Below are positions 35,108 to 45,217 of a stretch of DNA of 64,000 nt, piece after piece. Positions within the stretch are counted from its first letter, which is position 1. The number at the start of each line of letters is the position of its first letter. Made by a program: the position numbers and the translations under genes. The stretch is from Geothrix sp. Lineage in GTDB: Bacteria > Acidobacteriota > Holophagae > Holophagales > Holophagaceae. The notes under the pieces were generated by a model. The model searched no databases. It saw nothing but the letters and a program-made list of their open reading frames with translations, and had not been told where the DNA came from. Location: NCBI RefSeq assembly GCF_030219325.1, contig NZ_CP126625.1, positions 3,646,857-3,710,856 on the forward strand, written 5' to 3'.

Positions 35108-35229
35108 CGACGGCCCGATTCCGGCCCTTGCGGCGGCCCCGGCCCCGGCTACCATTGATGTGATTTTTTGCATCAATGTCGCGGGGGCCGCGGGCCGCCC
35201 GCCTTTCGGGCCTCGGCCCAGGAGCCGCC

Positions 35230-35604
35230 GTGAAGATCGCCGTCATCATCGTCCGCACGCTCATGGGGCTGCTGTTCCTCTTCGCCTCGGTGACCTACCT
35301 GTTCAAGCTCATCACGCCCCCGGAGCCCACGGGAGCCATGAAGACCTTCAGCGCCGGCCTGGAGGCCGCGCGCTACCTCATGCCCACGGTGAAGGTCCTC
35401 GAGCTGACCTGCGGGCTGGCCCTGGTGACGGGCCGCTTCGTGCCCCTGGCCACGGTGCTGCTGGCCCCCATCATCGTGAACATCCTGCTGATCCACGCCT
35501 TCCTGGGCCCCGAGGGCCTGCCCGTGGCCATCTTCCTGGTGCTGGCCAACGGCTTCCTGGCCTACCACCACCGGGAGAGCTACCGGCCCCTGTTCCGGGC
35601 CTGA
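35230..35604 (+). CDS. DoxX-like small membrane protein
   Basis: A 124-residue inner-membrane protein with four hydrophobic helices (about 4-24, 45-65, 73-93, 98-115). It has the arrangement RTLMGLLFLFASVTYLFKL, LMPTVKVLELTCGLALVTGRF and PLATVLLAPIIVNILLIHAF typical of DoxX/DoxD-type proteins. The GTG start at 35230 has AGGAG 5 bases upstream; an in-frame ATG at 35176 is less likely. Function not assigned; some DoxX relatives take part in redox protection. Confidence 0.8.
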   Translation: MKIAVIIVRTLMGLLFLFASVTYLFKLITPPEPTGAMKTFSAGLEAARYLMPTVKVLELTCGLALVTGRFVPLATVLLAPIIVNILLIHAFLGPEGLPVAIFLVLANGFLAYHHRESYRPLFRA

Positions 35605-36203: not shown

Positions 36204-37892
36204 ATGACGGACTGGTTCCATCCGGCCCAGCTCGCCGCCACGGCGATCCAGGTGGTCATCTCCACGGTGCTGGGCCGGCAGGCGGATCATCGGATTCTGG
36301 AGGCCCTGGCCGCCGGACCCATCGAAACCTACGACTACAGCGCTGGGGACACATTCACCTTCGACTATGTGGCGGATACGGGCGACGGGTGGGATTCCAC
36401 CTACACCTTGGCCTACCACCTGGCCCAGCCCGGCCTGCATCTGCCCGAGGGGACCGGCACGCGGACCCTGCCCAGGGGCCAGGTGCTCCTGTTTGGCGGG
36501 GACGAAGTCTACCCCGTAGCCAATCGGGCCCAGTATGAGAAGCGCCTGGTGGGCCCCTTCGAAACCGCCATGGCGTTGAGTCCCGACCAGAAGCAGGCTC
36601 CCCACGTATTCGCCATTCCCGGAAACCACGACTGGTACGACAGCTTGGTGGCCTTCACCCGGCTGTTCATCGGCAAGAGCTGGTTCGCCGCCTGGCAGAG
36701 CCGCCAGACGCGGAGCTACTTCGCCCTGAAGCTGCCCCATGGCTGGTGGCTGATGGGTGTGGATGTCCAACTGGATTCGGACCTGGATGCCCCCCAGGTC
36801 GAGTACTTCGAGCAGGTCGCCAGGACCATCCCCGAGGGGGACCGCATCATCCTCTGCCTGCCCGAACCCCACTGGATCTACCAGCAGGAACGAGATACCG
36901 GCCACTGGGATCGGGCATCCTGGGAGCGGCCCCAGTCTGATTCCCCCGGATCGCAGCCCATCCGCTCCAACCTGGACTACCTGGAACGCAAGCTGTTCAA
37001 GAACCAGGTGGCCGTGATGCTGGCCGGGGACCTCCACCACTACCGCCGCCACGCCCACCCCGATGGCCGCCAGAAAATCGTGGCCGGCGGCGGCGGTGCG
37101 TTCATGCATGCCTCCCATCCGTGGTCCCAGACCCCCTTGGCCGATGGCTCTCAGCTCAAGAGCGTCTGGCCCCCGACCTCCGAATCTCGGGCCCTCGTCT
37201 GGGGCAACCTGAAGTTCCCCCTGCTCCATTGGCCCCTGGGCCTGCTCATCGGGCTCTGCTACCTGCTGATCGATTGGACATTGCAGGTGGACCTTTCCGG
37301 GTTCCGTTTCTCGGAGTTCGGCTCCGCCCTGGGCCAAGCACTGCTGGAAGTCCTGCGACGTCCCGGGGGCGCATTCCTGATGCTGGGCCTTCTGGGTGCC
37401 TTCATCCTCTTCGCGTCTCCCGAGAGCCGGCGCTTCCGGTGGATCGCAGGCCTGGCCCACGGGCTCGGCCACCTGCTGCTCTGTTTCGTCCTGGGCTGGG
37501 GAGCCACCCGTCTCACGGTGGTGGCCTGGGGCCAGACCTACCAGAGCTGGAACCAGCTCCTTCTTGGCGGTGCCCTGGTGTTCCTGGGCGGGGCGATCCT
37601 GGGGGCCCTGCTCTTCGGGCTCTACCTGGCCCTCTCCCTCAACGTCTTCGGCCGCCACTGGACCGAAGCCTCCAGCGGCCTCGCGATTCCGGACTGGAAG
37701 AACTTCCTCCGCCTCCAGATCGGGTCGGACGGCGCCCTGAGCATCCATCCCATTGGGTTCCGGCGCATCTCCCGCCGCTGGAGGGCTGGCGCGGCAGACC
37801 CCACGGGACCTCGCCTGGAGCCGGATGATCCTGCCTTCACAGGACCGGAATACATCGAAGCACCGATCCAGGTGCCGGGACGGCGACCATGA
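36204..37892 (+). CDS. Membrane-anchored calcineurin-like metallophosphoesterase
   Basis: A 562-residue protein with an N-terminal metallophosphoesterase domain and a C-terminal membrane part. Metal-site motifs: DYVADTGDGWD (about 54-64), FGGDEVYP (97-104), PGNHDWYD (139-146) and AGDLHHYRRH (274-283). After residue 340 come about five hydrophobic helices, with a basic C-terminal tail. ATG at 36204 has GGAG nine bases upstream; TTG at 36108 or GTG at 36120 would add 32 or 28 residues and remain possible. Its stop overlaps the next gene (ATGA), so it starts a tight operon. The substrate is unknown; a lipid or nucleotide phosphate is plausible. Confidence 0.85.
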   Translation: MTDWFHPAQLAATAIQVVISTVLGRQADHRILEALAAGPIETYDYSAGDTFTFDYVADTGDGWDSTYTLAYHLAQPGLHLPEGTGTRTLPRGQVLLFGGDEVYPVANRAQYEKRLVGPFETAMALSPDQKQAPHVFAIPGNHDWYDSLVAFTRLFIGKSWFAAWQSRQTRSYFALKLPHGWWLMGVDVQLDSDLDAPQVEYFEQVARTIPEGDRIILCLPEPHWIYQQERDTGHWDRASWERPQSDSPGSQPIRSNLDYLERKLFKNQVAVMLAGDLHHYRRHAHPDGRQKIVAGGGGAFMHASHPWSQTPLADGSQLKSVWPPTSESRALVWGNLKFPLLHWPLGLLIGLCYLLIDWTLQVDLSGFRFSEFGSALGQALLEVLRRPGGAFLMLGLLGAFILFASPESRRFRWIAGLAHGLGHLLLCFVLGWGATRLTVVAWGQTYQSWNQLLLGGALVFLGGAILGALLFGLYLALSLNVFGRHWTEASSGLAIPDWKNFLRLQIGSDGALSIHPIGFRRISRRWRAGAADPTGPRLEPDDPAFTGPEYIEAPIQVPGRRP

Positions 37893-38920
37893 CGATCCTT
37901 CCCGAGACTTCCATCCCCTTCACCGCCGGTGACGGGCGCGCCCTGCGCTTGCGCCGGCTGGGCCTGGCCGACGAGGCCCCGAAGGGTCCCGTGATGCTCG
38001 TGCATGGCGCTGGAGTCCGCTCCAGCATCTTCCAGGCTCCGGTGAAGGAGAACCTGGTCCAGCGCCTGGTGGCCGAGGGCTACGACGTCTGGTTAGAGGA
38101 TTGGCGCGCCAGCATCGACCTGCCGCCCTGCAATTGGACACTGGACCAGGCGGCCCTCTACGACCATCCGAAGGCCGTGCAGAAAGTGATCGAAGTGACG
38201 GGCCGCAACCAGATGAAGGCCATCATCCACTGCCAGGGCTCCACCAGCTTCGCCATGTCGGCCCTGGCCGGGCTGGTGCCCGAGGTGGACACCATCGTCA
38301 CCAACGCCGTGTCCCTGTGCCCGGTCATTCCAGCCTTCTCCCGGTTCAAGCTGGCCTTCACCCTGCCCCTGGTCCACCGGATCATGGATGGCCTCGATCC
38401 CCAGTGGGGCGAGTACGCGCCGGACTGGAAGGCCAAGCTCATCCGGGCGGTGGCGGTGTACACGCACTTCGAACGCGAGAACGCCGTCAGCAAGCTGGTG
38501 AGCTTTACCTACGGGTCGGGCCATCCCGCCCTGTGGCGTCACGAGAACCTCAATGAGGCCACCCTGGACTGGCTGCGGCGCGAGTTCGCCCGCGTGCCCC
38601 TCAGCTTCTTCGAGCAGATTCGCACATGCGTCCGGGCCGGCCACCTGGTGAGTGTGGATGGGCGTCCGGGCCTGCCTGCGGATTACGCTGCTGGCCCGCT
38701 GCGCACCGAAGCCCGCTGGACCTTCCTCGCGGGGGAGCTGAACCGCTGCTTCCTGCCAGAGAGCCAAGTGCGGGCCCATGCCTTCTTCGATGCCCGGCAG
38801 CCGGGGCGTCACCGCCTTCATCTGTTCCCGCGCTACAGCCATCTGGACATTTTCATGGGCCAGGCGGCCAGCGAGGATGTCTTCCCCGTGATTCTTTCGG
38901 CCCTGCAGGGCCAAGGTTGA
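37889..38920 (+). CDS. Alpha/beta-fold hydrolase
   Basis: A 343-residue cytosolic-looking hydrolase. Seen: the oxyanion region VMLVHGAGVRSSIFQ (about 35-49) and a nucleophile elbow in IHCQGSTSFAM, which has Gly-x-Ser in a Cys-Gln-Gly-Ser context. A catalytic Asp region probably lies in LFP..SHLDIF, with His in YSHLDI near residue 322. In related proteins from other bacteria this domain is fused behind a GMC oxidoreductase (from memory of the families). It starts inside the stop of the metallophosphoesterase gene. Esterase or lipase activity on a lipid is the likely role, inferred. Confidence 0.8.
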   Translation: MTILPETSIPFTAGDGRALRLRRLGLADEAPKGPVMLVHGAGVRSSIFQAPVKENLVQRLVAEGYDVWLEDWRASIDLPPCNWTLDQAALYDHPKAVQKVIEVTGRNQMKAIIHCQGSTSFAMSALAGLVPEVDTIVTNAVSLCPVIPAFSRFKLAFTLPLVHRIMDGLDPQWGEYAPDWKAKLIRAVAVYTHFERENAVSKLVSFTYGSGHPALWRHENLNEATLDWLRREFARVPLSFFEQIRTCVRAGHLVSVDGRPGLPADYAAGPLRTEARWTFLAGELNRCFLPESQVRAHAFFDARQPGRHRLHLFPRYSHLDIFMGQAASEDVFPVILSALQGQG

Positions 38921-38930
38921 GGCGGTACCC

Positions 38931-39809
38931 ATGGGCGTTCCCTCCCGAGTTCTTCGCGCCACTGGCCGCCATGCACTGGTGGATGGCATTCCCTTCCAGC
39001 TGCCCGTGCTGTGTGAGGAAAGTCCGGCCCTCTTTGCGGTCTTCCCCATCGATGCAGACAAGGCCAGGGCCCTGCTTCCGGGCAACGAAATCCATCCTTT
39101 GCGTTTTTGGAACAGGGGGCTTCTGGTGGTCTCGGTGATGGACTACCGCAAGACCAGCATCGGAAAGTACATCGAGTTCAGTGTGGGCATCGCCTGTACC
39201 CGGGGACCCAAACCCGCCCCCCGTCTCCTTCCGGCCCTCCTGCCCTGGTTCTTCAACACCGGCCAATTCGTGGTGGAACTGCCGGTGAGTACGGAGATCT
39301 CCACCAAGGGCGGCAAGGGCATCTGGGGCATGCCCAAGCACCAGGGCAGCCTGGACTACCAGATCACGGATCAAACCGTGAGCAGCCAGTACGATCTGGA
39401 TGGCCAGCTGGGCATCCGGATCTCCATCCAGCGACCGGGCCGAGCCTGGCTTCCCCTTTCGGTGTCTGCCTCCAACTATTGCGCCTACAGGGGCATGATC
39501 TGGAAGTCCAACCTGCACTTCAAGGCCAAGGCCGGGCTGACGATGTTCAAGAAGGGCATCGCGGAACTGCTCATCGGCGACCATCCGCGTCTGGCGGCCC
39601 TGAAGGGCCTGGGGATCGGGAAGGACGCCCTCTTCGCGGCCTTCATCCCCTCCGCCCAAGGTGTCCTGGATGATCACGTGGAAGGCTGGTTCTACTCGGA
39701 GCCAAACCCCATCACCGCCCGCCCCGAAGGGTTCGAGAGCGTGGTGAACCTTGGCCTGGGCCAGGACTGGCCGCCGGCCCCAACCGCGAACGGAAGGAGA
39801 TCCCAATGA
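38931..39809 (+). CDS. Acetoacetate-decarboxylase-family protein
   Basis: A 292-residue protein with the layout of the acetoacetate decarboxylase (ADC) superfamily. An N-terminal region contains LPVLCEESPALFAVFPIDADKARALLPG, then LLVVSVMDYRKTSIGKYIEFSVGIACTRG, STKGGKGIWGMPKHQGSLDY and a late SYCAYRG-like strand. Family members of this branch often lack decarboxylase activity and may bind lipophilic ketones or fatty-acid-like ligands. It follows the hydrolase by 10 bp, and its stop overlaps the next ATG. The exact reaction is not known. Confidence 0.7.
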   Translation: MGVPSRVLRATGRHALVDGIPFQLPVLCEESPALFAVFPIDADKARALLPGNEIHPLRFWNRGLLVVSVMDYRKTSIGKYIEFSVGIACTRGPKPAPRLLPALLPWFFNTGQFVVELPVSTEISTKGGKGIWGMPKHQGSLDYQITDQTVSSQYDLDGQLGIRISIQRPGRAWLPLSVSASNYCAYRGMIWKSNLHFKAKAGLTMFKKGIAELLIGDHPRLAALKGLGIGKDALFAAFIPSAQGVLDDHVEGWFYSEPNPITARPEGFESVVNLGLGQDWPPAPTANGRRSQ

Positions 39810-40297
39810 AGCAGCCCTGGACCATCGCCACGAATCTGGGCCTGATGCTGGGCTGCGTCTCCATCTACATGGGCGTGGGCTGGTTCATGTGGGTCATGTC
39901 GTTCCCGTCGGCACCCCTTCTCACACCCGACAACATGGCCGTGGTCATGCTGCCCCAGGTGGCCGCCGCCACGCGCCTGTTCACCTTCCTCGTCACCCTG
40001 ATGGTGATCTGCGAGTCCCTGCTGATCTGGCAGCTCTGGCATACCCCCTTCAGGGTCTGGGCCCTGCTCGCTCTCATCCTTCTGGTGGCCGCCACAGGGG
40101 TGCACGTCACCTACTTGAAGCCCATCAATGACGAGCTGGCCAGCCACGCTCCCACGCTGGCCCGCCTCCAGGAACTGCTGATCCCGTGGGTCCACTACAA
40201 CCGGATCAAGGTGATCCTCTGGAATCTGGAGTGGCTGAACATGGCCGTGATCCTGCTGCGCCAGAGCGCGGGCTACTTCGCGGCAAAGGCGGCTTGA
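39806..40297 (+). CDS. Small four-helix membrane protein (DUF1772-like)
   Basis: A 163-residue inner-membrane protein with four hydrophobic helices (about 8-35, 52-77, 80-105, 128-152). It has a motif-rich layout: a Ser/Pro-containing first loop, TRLFTFLVTLM, THVTYLKPINDEL (read here as GVHVTYLKPINDEL) and WVHYNRIKVILWNLEWLNMA. This is reminiscent of DUF1772 (anthrone-oxygenase-like) proteins. It overlaps genes on both sides. Function unknown. Confidence 0.65.
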   Translation: MKQPWTIATNLGLMLGCVSIYMGVGWFMWVMSFPSAPLLTPDNMAVVMLPQVAAATRLFTFLVTLMVICESLLIWQLWHTPFRVWALLALILLVAATGVHVTYLKPINDELASHAPTLARLQELLIPWVHYNRIKVILWNLEWLNMAVILLRQSAGYFAAKAA

Positions 40298-40686
40298 TGA
40301 CCTCGCCACGGCTCCGACTGGTCCTGCTGATCATCGCGGTCCTCACCCTGATCAGCGGGGTCACCCAGATGCTGCTGCCCGCCGTCGTCCTTCACCTGGT
40401 GGGCGGACCGGACAACCCCGGCGCGCGCCACTTCTTCGGCATCGTGGGGATGTTCATGGTCCTCTTCGGCGGCCTGGCCTTCCAGTCGCTTCGGGCACCG
40501 GAGCCCCAGCAGACACTGCCCCTGCGGTGGGCTGCCCTCCAGAAACTGGGCGCCTCCATCGCCGTGGGCCTGGGGTTCCTCCATGGCCTCTTTGGCCCGC
40601 TCGCGATGCTGGTGGCCGGTTTCGACCTGCTCTCGGCGGTGCTGTTCTTCGCCTACCTGCGCCACCTTCCGGGACGGCTGCCATGA
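40297..40686 (+). CDS. Small membrane protein of unknown function
   Basis: A 129-residue protein with four predicted helices (about 8-32, 42-62, 78-100, 103-122). It contains the GARHFFGIVGMFMVLFGGL and ASIAVGLGFLHGLFGPLAM segments. The ATG at 40297 overlaps the previous stop (TGATGA), and the gene's stop overlaps the patatin ATG. It probably cooperates with the neighbouring four-helix protein in the membrane. No family identified. Confidence 0.65.
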   Translation: MTSPRLRLVLLIIAVLTLISGVTQMLLPAVVLHLVGGPDNPGARHFFGIVGMFMVLFGGLAFQSLRAPEPQQTLPLRWAALQKLGASIAVGLGFLHGLFGPLAMLVAGFDLLSAVLFFAYLRHLPGRLP

Positions 40687-42203
40687 CCCGCTGTCACTTC
40701 GCCGCGCCTCCGGGCGAGGGGCCCCGTCGGTCCCTGCTGCTGGCGGGGGGCGGGATGCGCGTGGCCTGGCAGGCGGGCGTCCTCTTGGCCCTGGACGAGG
40801 CGGGTGTCCGGTTCCAGCACTTCGATGGCGCTTCCGGGGGCACGCTGAACCTGGCCATGCTCCTCTCGGGACTGACACCCCTCGAGATGGTCCAGCGCTG
40901 GCGGGCTCTGGAGCTCGGGGACTTCATCTCGCTGCTGCCCCTGGCGGACTACCTGAAGGGCGCCTGGCCCGCCCTGGGCGACGCGGACGGCGTGCGCGAC
41001 AAAGTCTTCCCCAGCCTCGGCATCGACTTCGATTCGATCGGGGCCTGCGAAGGCCTGAGCGCCACCTTCAATCTCTGCAACTTCACTCGGAAAACCCTGG
41101 AGGTGGTGGAGCACACGGCCCTGGAACCCGACCTGCTGGTGGCCGCCATGTCCCTGCCCGCCTTCATGCCCGCCGTCCACTGGAAGGGCATGACCTATAC
41201 GGACGCGGTGTGGATCAAGGACACGAACCTGTGGGAGGCGGTGAAGCGCGGAGCCGAGGAACTCTGGCTGCTCTGGTGCATCGGCAACACGCCGACTTAC
41301 CGGGACGGGGCCTTTCCCCAATACGTCCACATGATCGAAATGAGCGCGAACGGCGCGCTCTTCGAAGAGCTTGACCGCATTCGCGATCTCAACGACCGGA
41401 TCCAGCGGGGCGACTCGCCCTTCGGCCAGCGCCAGCCCATCCAGCTGCATGTCATTAAGCCCGCCCAGGCCCTGCCCCTGGACCCGGATTTCTATCTGGG
41501 CCGAGTGCGGGCGGAGTCCCTCGTCGCCCTGGGCCACCGCGCCGCCACAGACTACCTGAGCCGCTGCAGCCCCGTCGGGCTTCCCCTCACTCCGGAGGTC
41601 ACCACCATGATCGATGCAGCTCCCGGACTCTCCTTCCGCGAAACCATGTCGGGTCCCTTCAGCCTTGGCCAGCAGGATCCGCAGGCCGGCGCTGACGCCC
41701 AGGGCCCGACCCTCGCCATGCATGCCACGGTCTTCATCCAGGATCTGGACCGCTTCCTGTCTGACCCGACACACCTGGGCAGCCTCAGCGGCACCATCGA
41801 CTACGCCCCCTTCGGAGCCCCGCTCGAGGCCCACCATGGCGTCTTCCGGCTGTTCTCGCCCACCGATGAGCCGAACACCCAGTACATGGTCTACGAGCTG
41901 GCCTTCGAGAAGGATGGCGAGCCCCACTATCTGGCCGGGCACAAGGTGGTGCGCCAGGATCCGGGCTTCGACATGTGGAAGGACACCACCACCCTCTACA
42001 CCAAGCTCCACAGGGGCCCCGATGCCAAGGGGGAGGTGGTGGGGGCGGGGGTCCTCAGCCTGGGCATGACGGATCTGCTCAAGCTCCTGAGCACGGTTGA
42101 GGTCCCGAATGCTGACCCCGCCCAGCGGGTGAGCACCCTCGCCAAGTTCGGGACCTTCTTCCTGGGCGAGCTCTGGAGTACCTACGGCAAACACCTGAGG
42201 TGA
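40683..42203 (+). CDS. Patatin-like phospholipase fused to a GMC-associated C-terminal domain
   Basis: A 506-residue protein. The patatin domain (about 15-300) has the oxyanion loop LLAGGGMRVAWQAG (19-32), nucleophile Ser51 in FDGASGGTLN and the dyad Asp174 in YTDAVWIKD (usually Asp-Gly, here Asp-Ala). From about residue 315 a second, strand-rich domain follows with GPFSLGQQDPQAG, FIQDLDRFLSDPTHLGSLSGT, FGAPLEAHHGVFRLFSP, YELAFEKDGEPHYLAGHKVV and WKDTTTLYTKLH. I recall this domain from the middle of long GMC/cholesterol-oxidase-like proteins; here it is attached to patatin instead. It lies directly upstream of the GMC gene. Lipid acyl hydrolysis is likely; the C-terminal domain may bind the lipid. 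Confidence 0.85.
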   Translation: MTRCHFAAPPGEGPRRSLLLAGGGMRVAWQAGVLLALDEAGVRFQHFDGASGGTLNLAMLLSGLTPLEMVQRWRALELGDFISLLPLADYLKGAWPALGDADGVRDKVFPSLGIDFDSIGACEGLSATFNLCNFTRKTLEVVEHTALEPDLLVAAMSLPAFMPAVHWKGMTYTDAVWIKDTNLWEAVKRGAEELWLLWCIGNTPTYRDGAFPQYVHMIEMSANGALFEELDRIRDLNDRIQRGDSPFGQRQPIQLHVIKPAQALPLDPDFYLGRVRAESLVALGHRAATDYLSRCSPVGLPLTPEVTTMIDAAPGLSFRETMSGPFSLGQQDPQAGADAQGPTLAMHATVFIQDLDRFLSDPTHLGSLSGTIDYAPFGAPLEAHHGVFRLFSPTDEPNTQYMVYELAFEKDGEPHYLAGHKVVRQDPGFDMWKDTTTLYTKLHRGPDAKGEVVGAGVLSLGMTDLLKLLSTVEVPNADPAQRVSTLAKFGTFFLGELWSTYGKHLR

Positions 42204-42205
42204 AC

Positions 42206-43801
42206 ATGGTCTGGGACGTGCTCGTCATCGGAAGCGGGTTCGGAGGCGCCATCGTGGGCAGCCGCATGGCGGAAAAGGGCGCCAAGGTACTGATGCTGGA
42301 GCGGGGGCGCTGGTGGGACAAGGCCGATAAGCCTGGCCGTAGCGCCTATCCCCGGGGCATCGGTGATCCCTGGCTCTGGAACCAGTCGGCCCCCGAGCGG
42401 GAGAACGGCTGGATCGATTTCAGGAATTTCCAGCACATGAGCGTGGTTCAGGGCGCCGCCGTGGGCGGCGGCTCCCTCATCTACGCCAACATCAGCACCG
42501 AGGCTCCGCCCTCGGCCTTTGAGGGAGGCTGGCCACCGGAGCTGACCTATGCGGAACTCAAGCCCCACTACGACCGGGTGGCCGCATTCATGAACGTCAT
42601 GCCCATTCCCGAGGGGCAGTGGACCGAGCGCATGAAGTTCATGCAGCGTTCCGCCGCCGCCATCGGCGAGCCGGCACGGTTCCGGCCCCTGGAGCTGGCC
42701 GTGTCCTTTGATCCCCAGTGGCGCTATGCCCCGGACGGATCCACCGAACGGGTGGAGATCTCCCGCCGCTTTGTCAACGCCCAGGGCGAGGAGCAGGGAA
42801 CCTGCGTGCACCTTGGCAACTGCGACATCGGCTGCGAAGCCGACGCCAAGAACACCCTGGACCGCAACTACATTCCCATGGGCGTTCGGCACGGAATGGA
42901 CGTGCGACCCCTCCACCTTGTGCGCAACATTGAGCCCTGCCCCGGGGGAGGCTATGTCGTCCACTTCGACCGCATCCAGAACGGACAACTGATCCCCGGG
43001 GAGGAGAAGGCCCGCCAGGTGGTGGTGTCCGCGGGCTCCCTCGGCTCCACGGAACTCCTGCTGCGCTGCCGTGACGAGCACCGCACCCTGGAACGCCTGA
43101 GCCCCAGACTGGGCGAGGGCTGGTGTAGCAATGGCGATTTCCTCACCCCGGCCTTCTATCCGGACATGGCGCCCCTCCACCCCAGCAAGGGACCCACCAT
43201 CTCCAGCACCATCTCCTTTCTGGATGGCAGCCAGGGCGAGCGCTTCTGGATCGAGGATGGGGGCTTCCCGAACCTGCTGGCGGATCAAGCCCGGAACCTG
43301 GGCGGAGGCCGGATTCGCAACCTGCGCGCCAAGCTGCTGGTGGACGTCCTCCAGCGGCTGCTCCGGGCTCATCCCGAGCCCTTCCCGCACGTGATGCCCT
43401 GGTTCGCCCAAGGCATGGACCGGGCCGAAGGCGTCATGGCCCTCCGCCGCCGGTTCTGGATCTTCGGACGGCGGAGCCTGCATCTGGACTGGGAACTGCC
43501 CAGCGGCAAGCCTGTGGTGGACGCGATCATCGCCATGCACAAGCGGCTGACCGAGGCCACCGGCGGCACCTTCCACGCGCCTGTGAACTGGAATGTGGCG
43601 CATCACCTCGTCACCCCACACCCCCTGGGTGGCTGCATCATGGGCCGCGGACCCTCCGATGGGGTGGTGGACCACGCAGGCCGGGTCTTCGGCCACGAGG
43701 GCCTCTACGTGGCCGATGGCGCCATCATCCCCCGGGCCCTGGGCGTCAACCCCAGCCGCACCATCGGGGCGCTTGCCGAGCGAGTGGCGTCACTCATGTA
43801 G
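42206..43801 (+). CDS. GMC-family oxidoreductase (cholesterol-oxidase-like)
   Basis: A 531-residue FAD-dependent oxidoreductase. Seen: the Rossmann motif VLVIGSGFGGAIVGSRMAEKG (split here), then ERGRWWDKADKPGRS, the GGGSLIYANI segment, the Cys-rich QGTCVHLGNCDIGCEADAKNTLD insert, and the C-terminal HPLGGCIMGRGPSDGVVDHAGRV and GLYVADGAIIPRALGVNPSRTIGALAER with catalytic His/Asn. A GTG at 42200 overlapping the previous stop is an alternative start. Likely substrates are sterols, long-chain alcohols or polyprenols; none is proven. It ends the operon. Confidence 0.88.
   Translation: MVWDVLVIGSGFGGAIVGSRMAEKGAKVLMLERGRWWDKADKPGRSAYPRGIGDPWLWNQSAPERENGWIDFRNFQHMSVVQGAAVGGGSLIYANISTEAPPSAFEGGWPPELTYAELKPHYDRVAAFMNVMPIPEGQWTERMKFMQRSAAAIGEPARFRPLELAVSFDPQWRYAPDGSTERVEISRRFVNAQGEEQGTCVHLGNCDIGCEADAKNTLDRNYIPMGVRHGMDVRPLHLVRNIEPCPGGGYVVHFDRIQNGQLIPGEEKARQVVVSAGSLGSTELLLRCRDEHRTLERLSPRLGEGWCSNGDFLTPAFYPDMAPLHPSKGPTISSTISFLDGSQGERFWIEDGGFPNLLADQARNLGGGRIRNLRAKLLVDVLQRLLRAHPEPFPHVMPWFAQGMDRAEGVMALRRRFWIFGRRSLHLDWELPSGKPVVDAIIAMHKRLTEATGGTFHAPVNWNVAHHLVTPHPLGGCIMGRGPSDGVVDHAGRVFGHEGLYVADGAIIPRALGVNPSRTIGALAERVASLM

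Positions 43802-45217
<1,416 letters not shown>

Follow-up and report, generated by a model that had tools for sequence, protein, structure and literature searches.

The window analysed here is a stretch of 64,000 nucleotides from the genome of Geothrix sp., a single contig of 3.73 Mb, and all coordinates refer to the whole of this stretch. It carries, at 36204-43801, seven co-directional genes on the plus strand in the order MPE, ABH, ADC, ANT, TM5, PAT and GMC, with no junction exceeding 10 bp. The features are the following:

36204-37892, plus strand: MPE, a metallophosphoesterase domain with four predicted membrane segments (Pfam Metallophos, conserved ligands, hydropathy)
37889-38920, plus strand: ABH type 1, an alpha/beta-hydrolase fold (profile match to acid lipases, conserved residues)
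38931-39809, plus strand: ADC-like enzyme with a G-M-P-K136 motif (Pfam ADC)
39806-40297, plus strand: ANT, a small protein with 3-4 membrane segments (hydropathy, DUF1772 match below cut-off)
40297-40686, plus strand: TM5, a small membrane protein of no family (no Pfam match above cut-off)
40683-42203, plus strand: PAT, a patatin-like acyl hydrolase with a C-terminal domain X (Pfam patatin, dyad, model)
41619-42203, plus strand: domain X, PAT residues ~313-506 (tblastn homology to the GMC-ABH linker, model)
42200 (GTG) or 42206 (ATG, the probable start) to 43801, plus strand: GMC flavoenzyme (GMC_oxred_C, Cys motif)

The MPE/ABH junction is a 4-bp ATGA overlap, and ADC/ANT and TM5/PAT also overlap at ATGA. 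ANT and TM5 share 1 bp (TGATG), ABH and ADC are separated by a 10-bp gap, and PAT and GMC either overlap by 4 bp (GTG start) or lie 2 bp apart (ATG start). An initial annotation, made from the letters alone, had described seven genes on one strand with five of the six junctions overlapping or abutting, and the junctions read from the sequence agree with it; such spacing shows the arrangement of one tight operon. Scans with promoter and terminator consensus sequences gave nothing above chance in the operon, and no export signal was seen by eye in any of its enzymes.

We gathered related loci via ABH, so that the conservation figures are conditional on this gene; in GC-rich loci the genes of relatives were taken from homology-trained calls. 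Scanning 84,980 species with ABH gave eight genuine loci (53-88% identity), hosted by Holophagaceae, a cyanobacterium, Gemmatimonadota, Nonomuraea, a nitriliruptoran, Chloroflexota and Lysobacterales, and whole-genome sampling by phylum added nine further ones. The other window genes adjoined ABH in relatives, as detected by tblastn. The gene order ABH, ADC, PAT was shared by loci of Acidobacteriota, Cyanobacteriota, Gemmatimonadota, Actinomycetota, Chloroflexota and Pseudomonadota (the patatin being lost to a contig end in one), and between phyla the arrangement ABH-ADC-(ANT-TM5)-PAT persists with identities of about 50-60%. Among 19 loci with type 1 ABH, domain X was present in all, ADC and the GMC enzyme in 17 each and PAT in 14. 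An MPE homologue occurred in 9/19 and ANT with TM5 in 8/19, always paired and between ADC and PAT: MPE, ANT and TM5 are the least constant members of the set. All seven families were together in three phyla, namely in the window, L012 and L013, in L022 and L031 (Actinomycetota) and in L036 and L037 (Gemmatimonadota); on the complete Arthrobacter plasmid (L022) their order is GMC-X, MPE, ABH, ADC, ANT, TM5, PAT. Homology and gene order show ABH-ADC-PAT, the GMC enzyme and domain X to be a conserved set in six phyla. The cross-phylum order rules out a chance stacking of genes and, together with gene content and fusions described below, strongly supports the joint function proposed at first. Neighbourhood comparison also bore out a spread over Acidobacteriota, Actinomycetota and Pseudomonadota. 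Conservation is thus wide and reaches beyond close relatives, and in the full text of open-licence PMC articles we found neither a paper linking these families nor a match to a known published operon.

The module is nevertheless missing from most close relatives of its host. Within the host genus, 3 of 47 genomes had type 1 ABH; it was further detected in 2 of 297 sampled Acidobacteriota, both from that genus, and in about 5/296 Actinomycetota, 1/214 Cyanobacteriota, 4/398 Pseudomonadota, 3/150 Gemmatimonadota and 1/201 Chloroflexota. Being so rare and patchy, the module probably moves horizontally. ABH identity was nearly the same within phyla (0.61) and between them (0.58), and the distance matrices of ABH, ADC and PAT correlated with each other (r = 0.52-0.68, 12 loci, permutation p = 2e-4). 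Correlated distances and near-equal identities suggest, from pairwise comparison rather than from a tree, that the set has been transferred as a unit.

Domain X corresponds to the last ~190 residues of PAT and is by tblastn 32-41% identical to the linker that joins GMC to the hydrolase in fusion proteins. It matched no Pfam family up to E = 1, and its model (predicted local distance difference test, pLDDT, 82) is an eight-stranded beta barrel followed by two C-terminal helices. X was located at the C-terminal end of GMC in L014, L015, L018, L022, L031 and L032, in front of ABH in L029, and standing alone in L017 and L023. It was also found between GMC and a second-type hydrolase (ABH2) in one chain of 1120-1169 residues, annotated as single genes in Rhizobium, Azospirillum, Leptospira and Bernardetia plasmids; GMC-hydrolase fusions, mentioned for other bacteria in the initial annotation, thus exist. 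These proteins unite in one chain the GMC, X and ABH domains of the operon, and in Azospirillum MPE lies directly upstream. They differ in having no ADC or patatin neighbour and a hydrolase from a second, more distant branch, and they are annotated as 'alpha/beta fold hydrolase' or 'GMC oxidoreductase'. A Gemmatimonadota locus (L055:9361-14520) carries a tandem GMC-X-ABH2-X-ABH2, a duplicated X-hydrolase unit. Beside GMC-X in the cyanobacterium (L014:8855-9919, 384 bits) and beside GMC-X-ABH2 in a Pseudomonadota genome (L051:12947-14053) we observed a DUF6765 gene, a candidate further partner.

Through gene fusion, domain X is shown to tie PAT, GMC and ABH together at the level of the encoded chains, and because of these fusions we infer for it a shared role in carrying the substrate or in docking. 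Assignment of X to a known fold family was attempted and dropped: its neighbours were generic up-and-down barrels (lipocalin-, avidin-, OmpA- and erythrocruorin-linker-like, Z 6-9.5) and no family is claimed. As the matches are of this generic kind, lipid binding by the modelled barrel is a guess.

The GMC enzyme scored above the Pfam cut-off for GMC_oxred_C (65.3 bits) and its closest solved relatives are cholesterol oxidases. With the Streptomyces and Brevibacterium enzymes (1b4v/1mxt, 1coy) it has in common the GMC fold, as judged by sequence, and the catalytic pair His474/Asn517, which aligns with the HPLGG and GVNP motifs and is kept in 34 of 37 relatives. However, these oxidases lack the C202-x5-C208-x3-C212 motif found in 37/37 relatives of the operon enzyme (25 of which have a fourth Cys, C-x2-C-x2-C-x3-C): no Cys occupies positions 202, 208 or 212 in the aligned solved cholesterol oxidases. 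The top NCBIfam model, NF058674 'cholesterol oxidase', gave 221.5 bits, far below its cut-off of 850, and residues 319-427, the substrate region, remained unaligned with cholesterol oxidase in phmmer. Owing to this motif of iron-sulphur (Fe-S) type, absent from cholesterol oxidases, the first label of the gene, 'cholesterol-oxidase-like', is misleading; the other families named with it stood, since Metallophos, ADC and patatin, like GMC_oxred_C, all exceeded their Pfam cut-offs.

In the FAD glucose dehydrogenase (FAD-GDH) of Burkholderia cepacia, the ligands of the 3Fe-4S cluster are Cys212, Cys218 and Cys222 (PMC6719666). This dehydrogenase of the direct-electron-transfer (DET) type, a significant profile match to the GMC enzyme (PDB 6a2u, 1.8e-23), has the same Cys spacing and His/Asn pair. 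A Cys motif with the ligand spacing of FAD-GDH indicates that the GMC enzyme most likely passes electrons to a carrier, and it is probably an electron-passing dehydrogenase. Unlike its B. cepacia counterpart, it has no gene for a hitchhiker subunit or a multihaem cytochrome c at its side, no export signal, and neighbours of lipid-enzyme type. A second GMC gene of the host (G000:C1:3208520, locus L002) carries the same Cys motif, CTLCGGCMLGC, with no domain X match.

These data bear directly on catabolism of sterols or steryl esters, where patatin and ABH would split the esters and GMC would act as a cholesterol oxidase producing a 3-keto steroid. The solved relatives of GMC and its top NCBIfam model are in favour, and so is the resemblance of ABH to lysosomal acid lipase/cholesteryl ester hydrolase. 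The score missing the NF058674 cut-off, the Fe-S-type motif foreign to cholesterol oxidases and the unaligned substrate region speak against it, and no ring-degradation genes were seen nearby. In addition, a search for sterol or hopanoid cyclases (SHC/OSC family) gave no match in 14 of the 18 genomes with the module, that of the host among them; such absence makes a hopanoid or sterol made by the host an unlikely substrate, and this candidate was rejected. We regard the sterol explanation as improbable.

ABH had no Pfam match above cut-off. Its profile matched gastric lipase (2.9e-8) and lysosomal acid lipase, and the nucleophile elbow and the Y-x-H-L-D segment align with those of these acid lipases (gastric 1hlg, lysosomal 6v7n). 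In contrast, the lipase motif HSQG reads HCQG in ABH: Cys115 at the elbow (IHCQGS) replaces the Ser, and an invariant Asn285 stands where an acid is expected, while His318 lies within Y-x-H-L-D. C115 was conserved in 41 of 44 ABH relatives, N285, H318 and D320 in 44/44. The enzyme called a hydrolase in the initial annotation thus has a Cys and not a Ser nucleophile. The three relatives without Cys have Gly and are all second-type copies. These Gly-type hydrolases, found at L019:11930-13015 (between ADC and PAT of a module), L040:4717-5823 (beside ADC and PAT) and L054:9409-10389, are perhaps non-catalytic partner subunits.

Polyhydroxyalkanoate (PHA) synthases use a Cys nucleophile and a thioester intermediate. 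By analogy, the shared Cys nucleophile suggests that ABH works via a thioester intermediate. ABH does not attain the PHA synthase cut-offs (19.4 and 19.5 bits, where 622.65 and 365.3 are required; structure 9knj matched at 0.0019). This Cys and these weak matches are in line with a second explanation, the synthesis of ketones or lactones from hydroxy fatty acids: GMC would make a beta-keto group, ABH would cut a thioester in the manner of PHA synthase, ADC would produce a ketone by decarboxylation and patatin would supply acyl chains from phospholipids. An ADC with invariant Lys136 that immediately follows ABH in every locus having it also fits. Against this, genes for an acyl-carrier protein, a ligase or beta-oxidation are absent from the operon, and the phosphoesterase is left unexplained. 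We consider this scheme doubtful.

PAT matched Pfam patatin with 62 bits (cut-off 27.7), and its dyad S51/D174 was kept in 15/15 relatives. The PAT model (pLDDT 81.5) adopts a patatin fold, with Z 25.2 to PlpD (5fya) and 21.6 to 1oxw. Fold and Ser-Asp dyad are thus common to PAT and the PlpD/patatin phospholipases; PAT differs from PlpD by its C-terminal domain X and has no export domain. CapV/CapE patatin folds were among the structural neighbours of PAT, which, with the patchy distribution, could point to an anti-phage or antagonistic system having the patatin as effector. However, none of the seven genes had a PADLOC match, on which ground the defence candidate was ruled out; no sensor or nucleotide-cyclase gene was found, and the oxidative enzymes would have no explanation. 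This reading is thus extremely unlikely.

MPE consists of a metallophosphoesterase domain (~1-330; Pfam Metallophos, 24.7 bits, cut-off 21.5) and four membrane segments predicted by hydropathy at 338-470. D58, G60, D100, Y103, N141, H142, D143, D276 and H278 were invariant in 11/11 relatives, as were the motifs D58-x-G, GD-x-x-Y and GNHD, which we take to be purple-acid-phosphatase-like; the final GHxH of that family is absent and G-D-x-H-H-Y is found instead. Where MPE is absent, four loci have an unrelated phosphoesterase close by: a PhoD-like enzyme in L029 and other calcineurin-like ones in L030 and L034/L035. Non-homologous phosphoesterases in the phosphatase slot suggest that the function rather than the gene is kept.

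ADC exceeded the cut-off of Pfam ADC (PF06314) with 50.1 bits against 29.8. K126, K136 and K192 were invariant, the P-K motif lysine K136 in 17/17, with no solved ADC aligned; no solved structure matched MPE or ADC by sequence. ANT scored 20.2 bits with anthrone oxygenase/DUF1772 (PF08592), below the cut-off of 27.3, and TM5 had relatives of 46-74% identity in 7 loci. ANT shares only 34% identity with the corresponding gene of the nearest relative (L012:11931-12425), compared with 74-89% for the six other operon genes; it seems that the gene was substituted at its site or that its evolution is very rapid. The anthrone-oxygenase-like ANT could belong to a tailoring cluster for a small specialised metabolite, a polyketide or terpenoid. 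Consistent with this, relatives of ABH adjoin a type I polyketide synthase and a thioester reductase in Rhodococcus, and an animal-type haem peroxidase gene (L041:11933-13867) starts ~80 bp after ADC in Nonomuraea. However, neither the operon nor its identified flanking genes include a scaffold-building enzyme, transporter, resistance gene or regulator, and a tailoring role appears unlikely.

Conserved motifs show the predicted catalytic residues of PAT, MPE, GMC and ABH to be intact, and the operon probably represents a hitherto undescribed pathway modifying a lipid or a similar greasy molecule. In the scheme that we favour, PAT, with its Ser-Asp dyad, would cleave a lipid ester to free an acyl group, and a phosphate would be removed by MPE or, in other lineages, by an unrelated phosphatase. 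The GMC enzyme would oxidise the resulting hydroxyl to a carbonyl, with an Fe-S cluster relaying the electrons not to O2 but to a respiratory or membrane acceptor. ABH would form a Cys-bound acyl intermediate, as a transacylase or thioesterase, and ADC would act through Lys136 on a beta-keto product, by decarboxylation or by aldol/dehydration chemistry. Domain X would hold the greasy substrate and let the enzymes hand it on, while ANT and TM5 may anchor the complex or accept electrons. Taken as a whole, that the operon is a horizontally mobile, intracellular and membrane-associated module processing a lipid-like molecule is in our estimate an evenly balanced proposition. A bolder version is tentative: a lipid-binding barrel X would be the common carrier or docking module for a patatin, an Fe-S GMC dehydrogenase and a Cys-type acyltransferase, in an anaerobic-compatible oxidation of membrane lipids giving a product new to bacteria.

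Several observations weigh against this interpretation. Its substrate and the order of its steps, including the sequence suggested at first (dephosphorylation, acyl release, oxidation), are guesses, the Fe-S cluster of GMC is inferred from Cys spacing alone, and K136 is only presumably the Schiff-base (catalytic) Lys of ADC, by the motif of the family. No CxxCH of a multihaem cytochrome c occurs in the operon or the called flanking genes, nor is a hitchhiker subunit encoded in the operon. The structural neighbours of domain X are all generic, the best with Z 9.5. A nearby patatin is missing in 5/19 loci (in L018 only since the contig ends after ADC), ANT and TM5 are missing from 11/19, MPE is also found on its own in plasmids of Rhizobium and Mesorhizobium, and some of the loci collected are metagenome bins.

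Concerning the surroundings, a GAPDH gene, identified from its sequence (44219-45217), follows 418 bp downstream of the operon and is not part of the set in relatives. A gene for a DoxX-like small membrane protein (35176-35604) lies 600 bp upstream; in relatives, we did not identify it next to the module. Third-position GC of the operon genes (0.81-0.91) was slightly below that of the two downstream genes (0.93-0.97).

An order kept over six phyla, yet absent from most close relatives, means that the operon almost certainly makes or breaks something useful. No member has an assigned role in the set and domain X falls outside all Pfam families; automatic annotation would probably misassign the mechanism, as that of an O2-using cholesterol oxidase and a Ser hydrolase. 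Since the fusions make the interacting partners explicit, the pathway is directly testable, and the same work would provide a function for the 1100-residue GMC-X-ABH proteins of rhizobia, azospirilla, leptospires and Bacteroidota.

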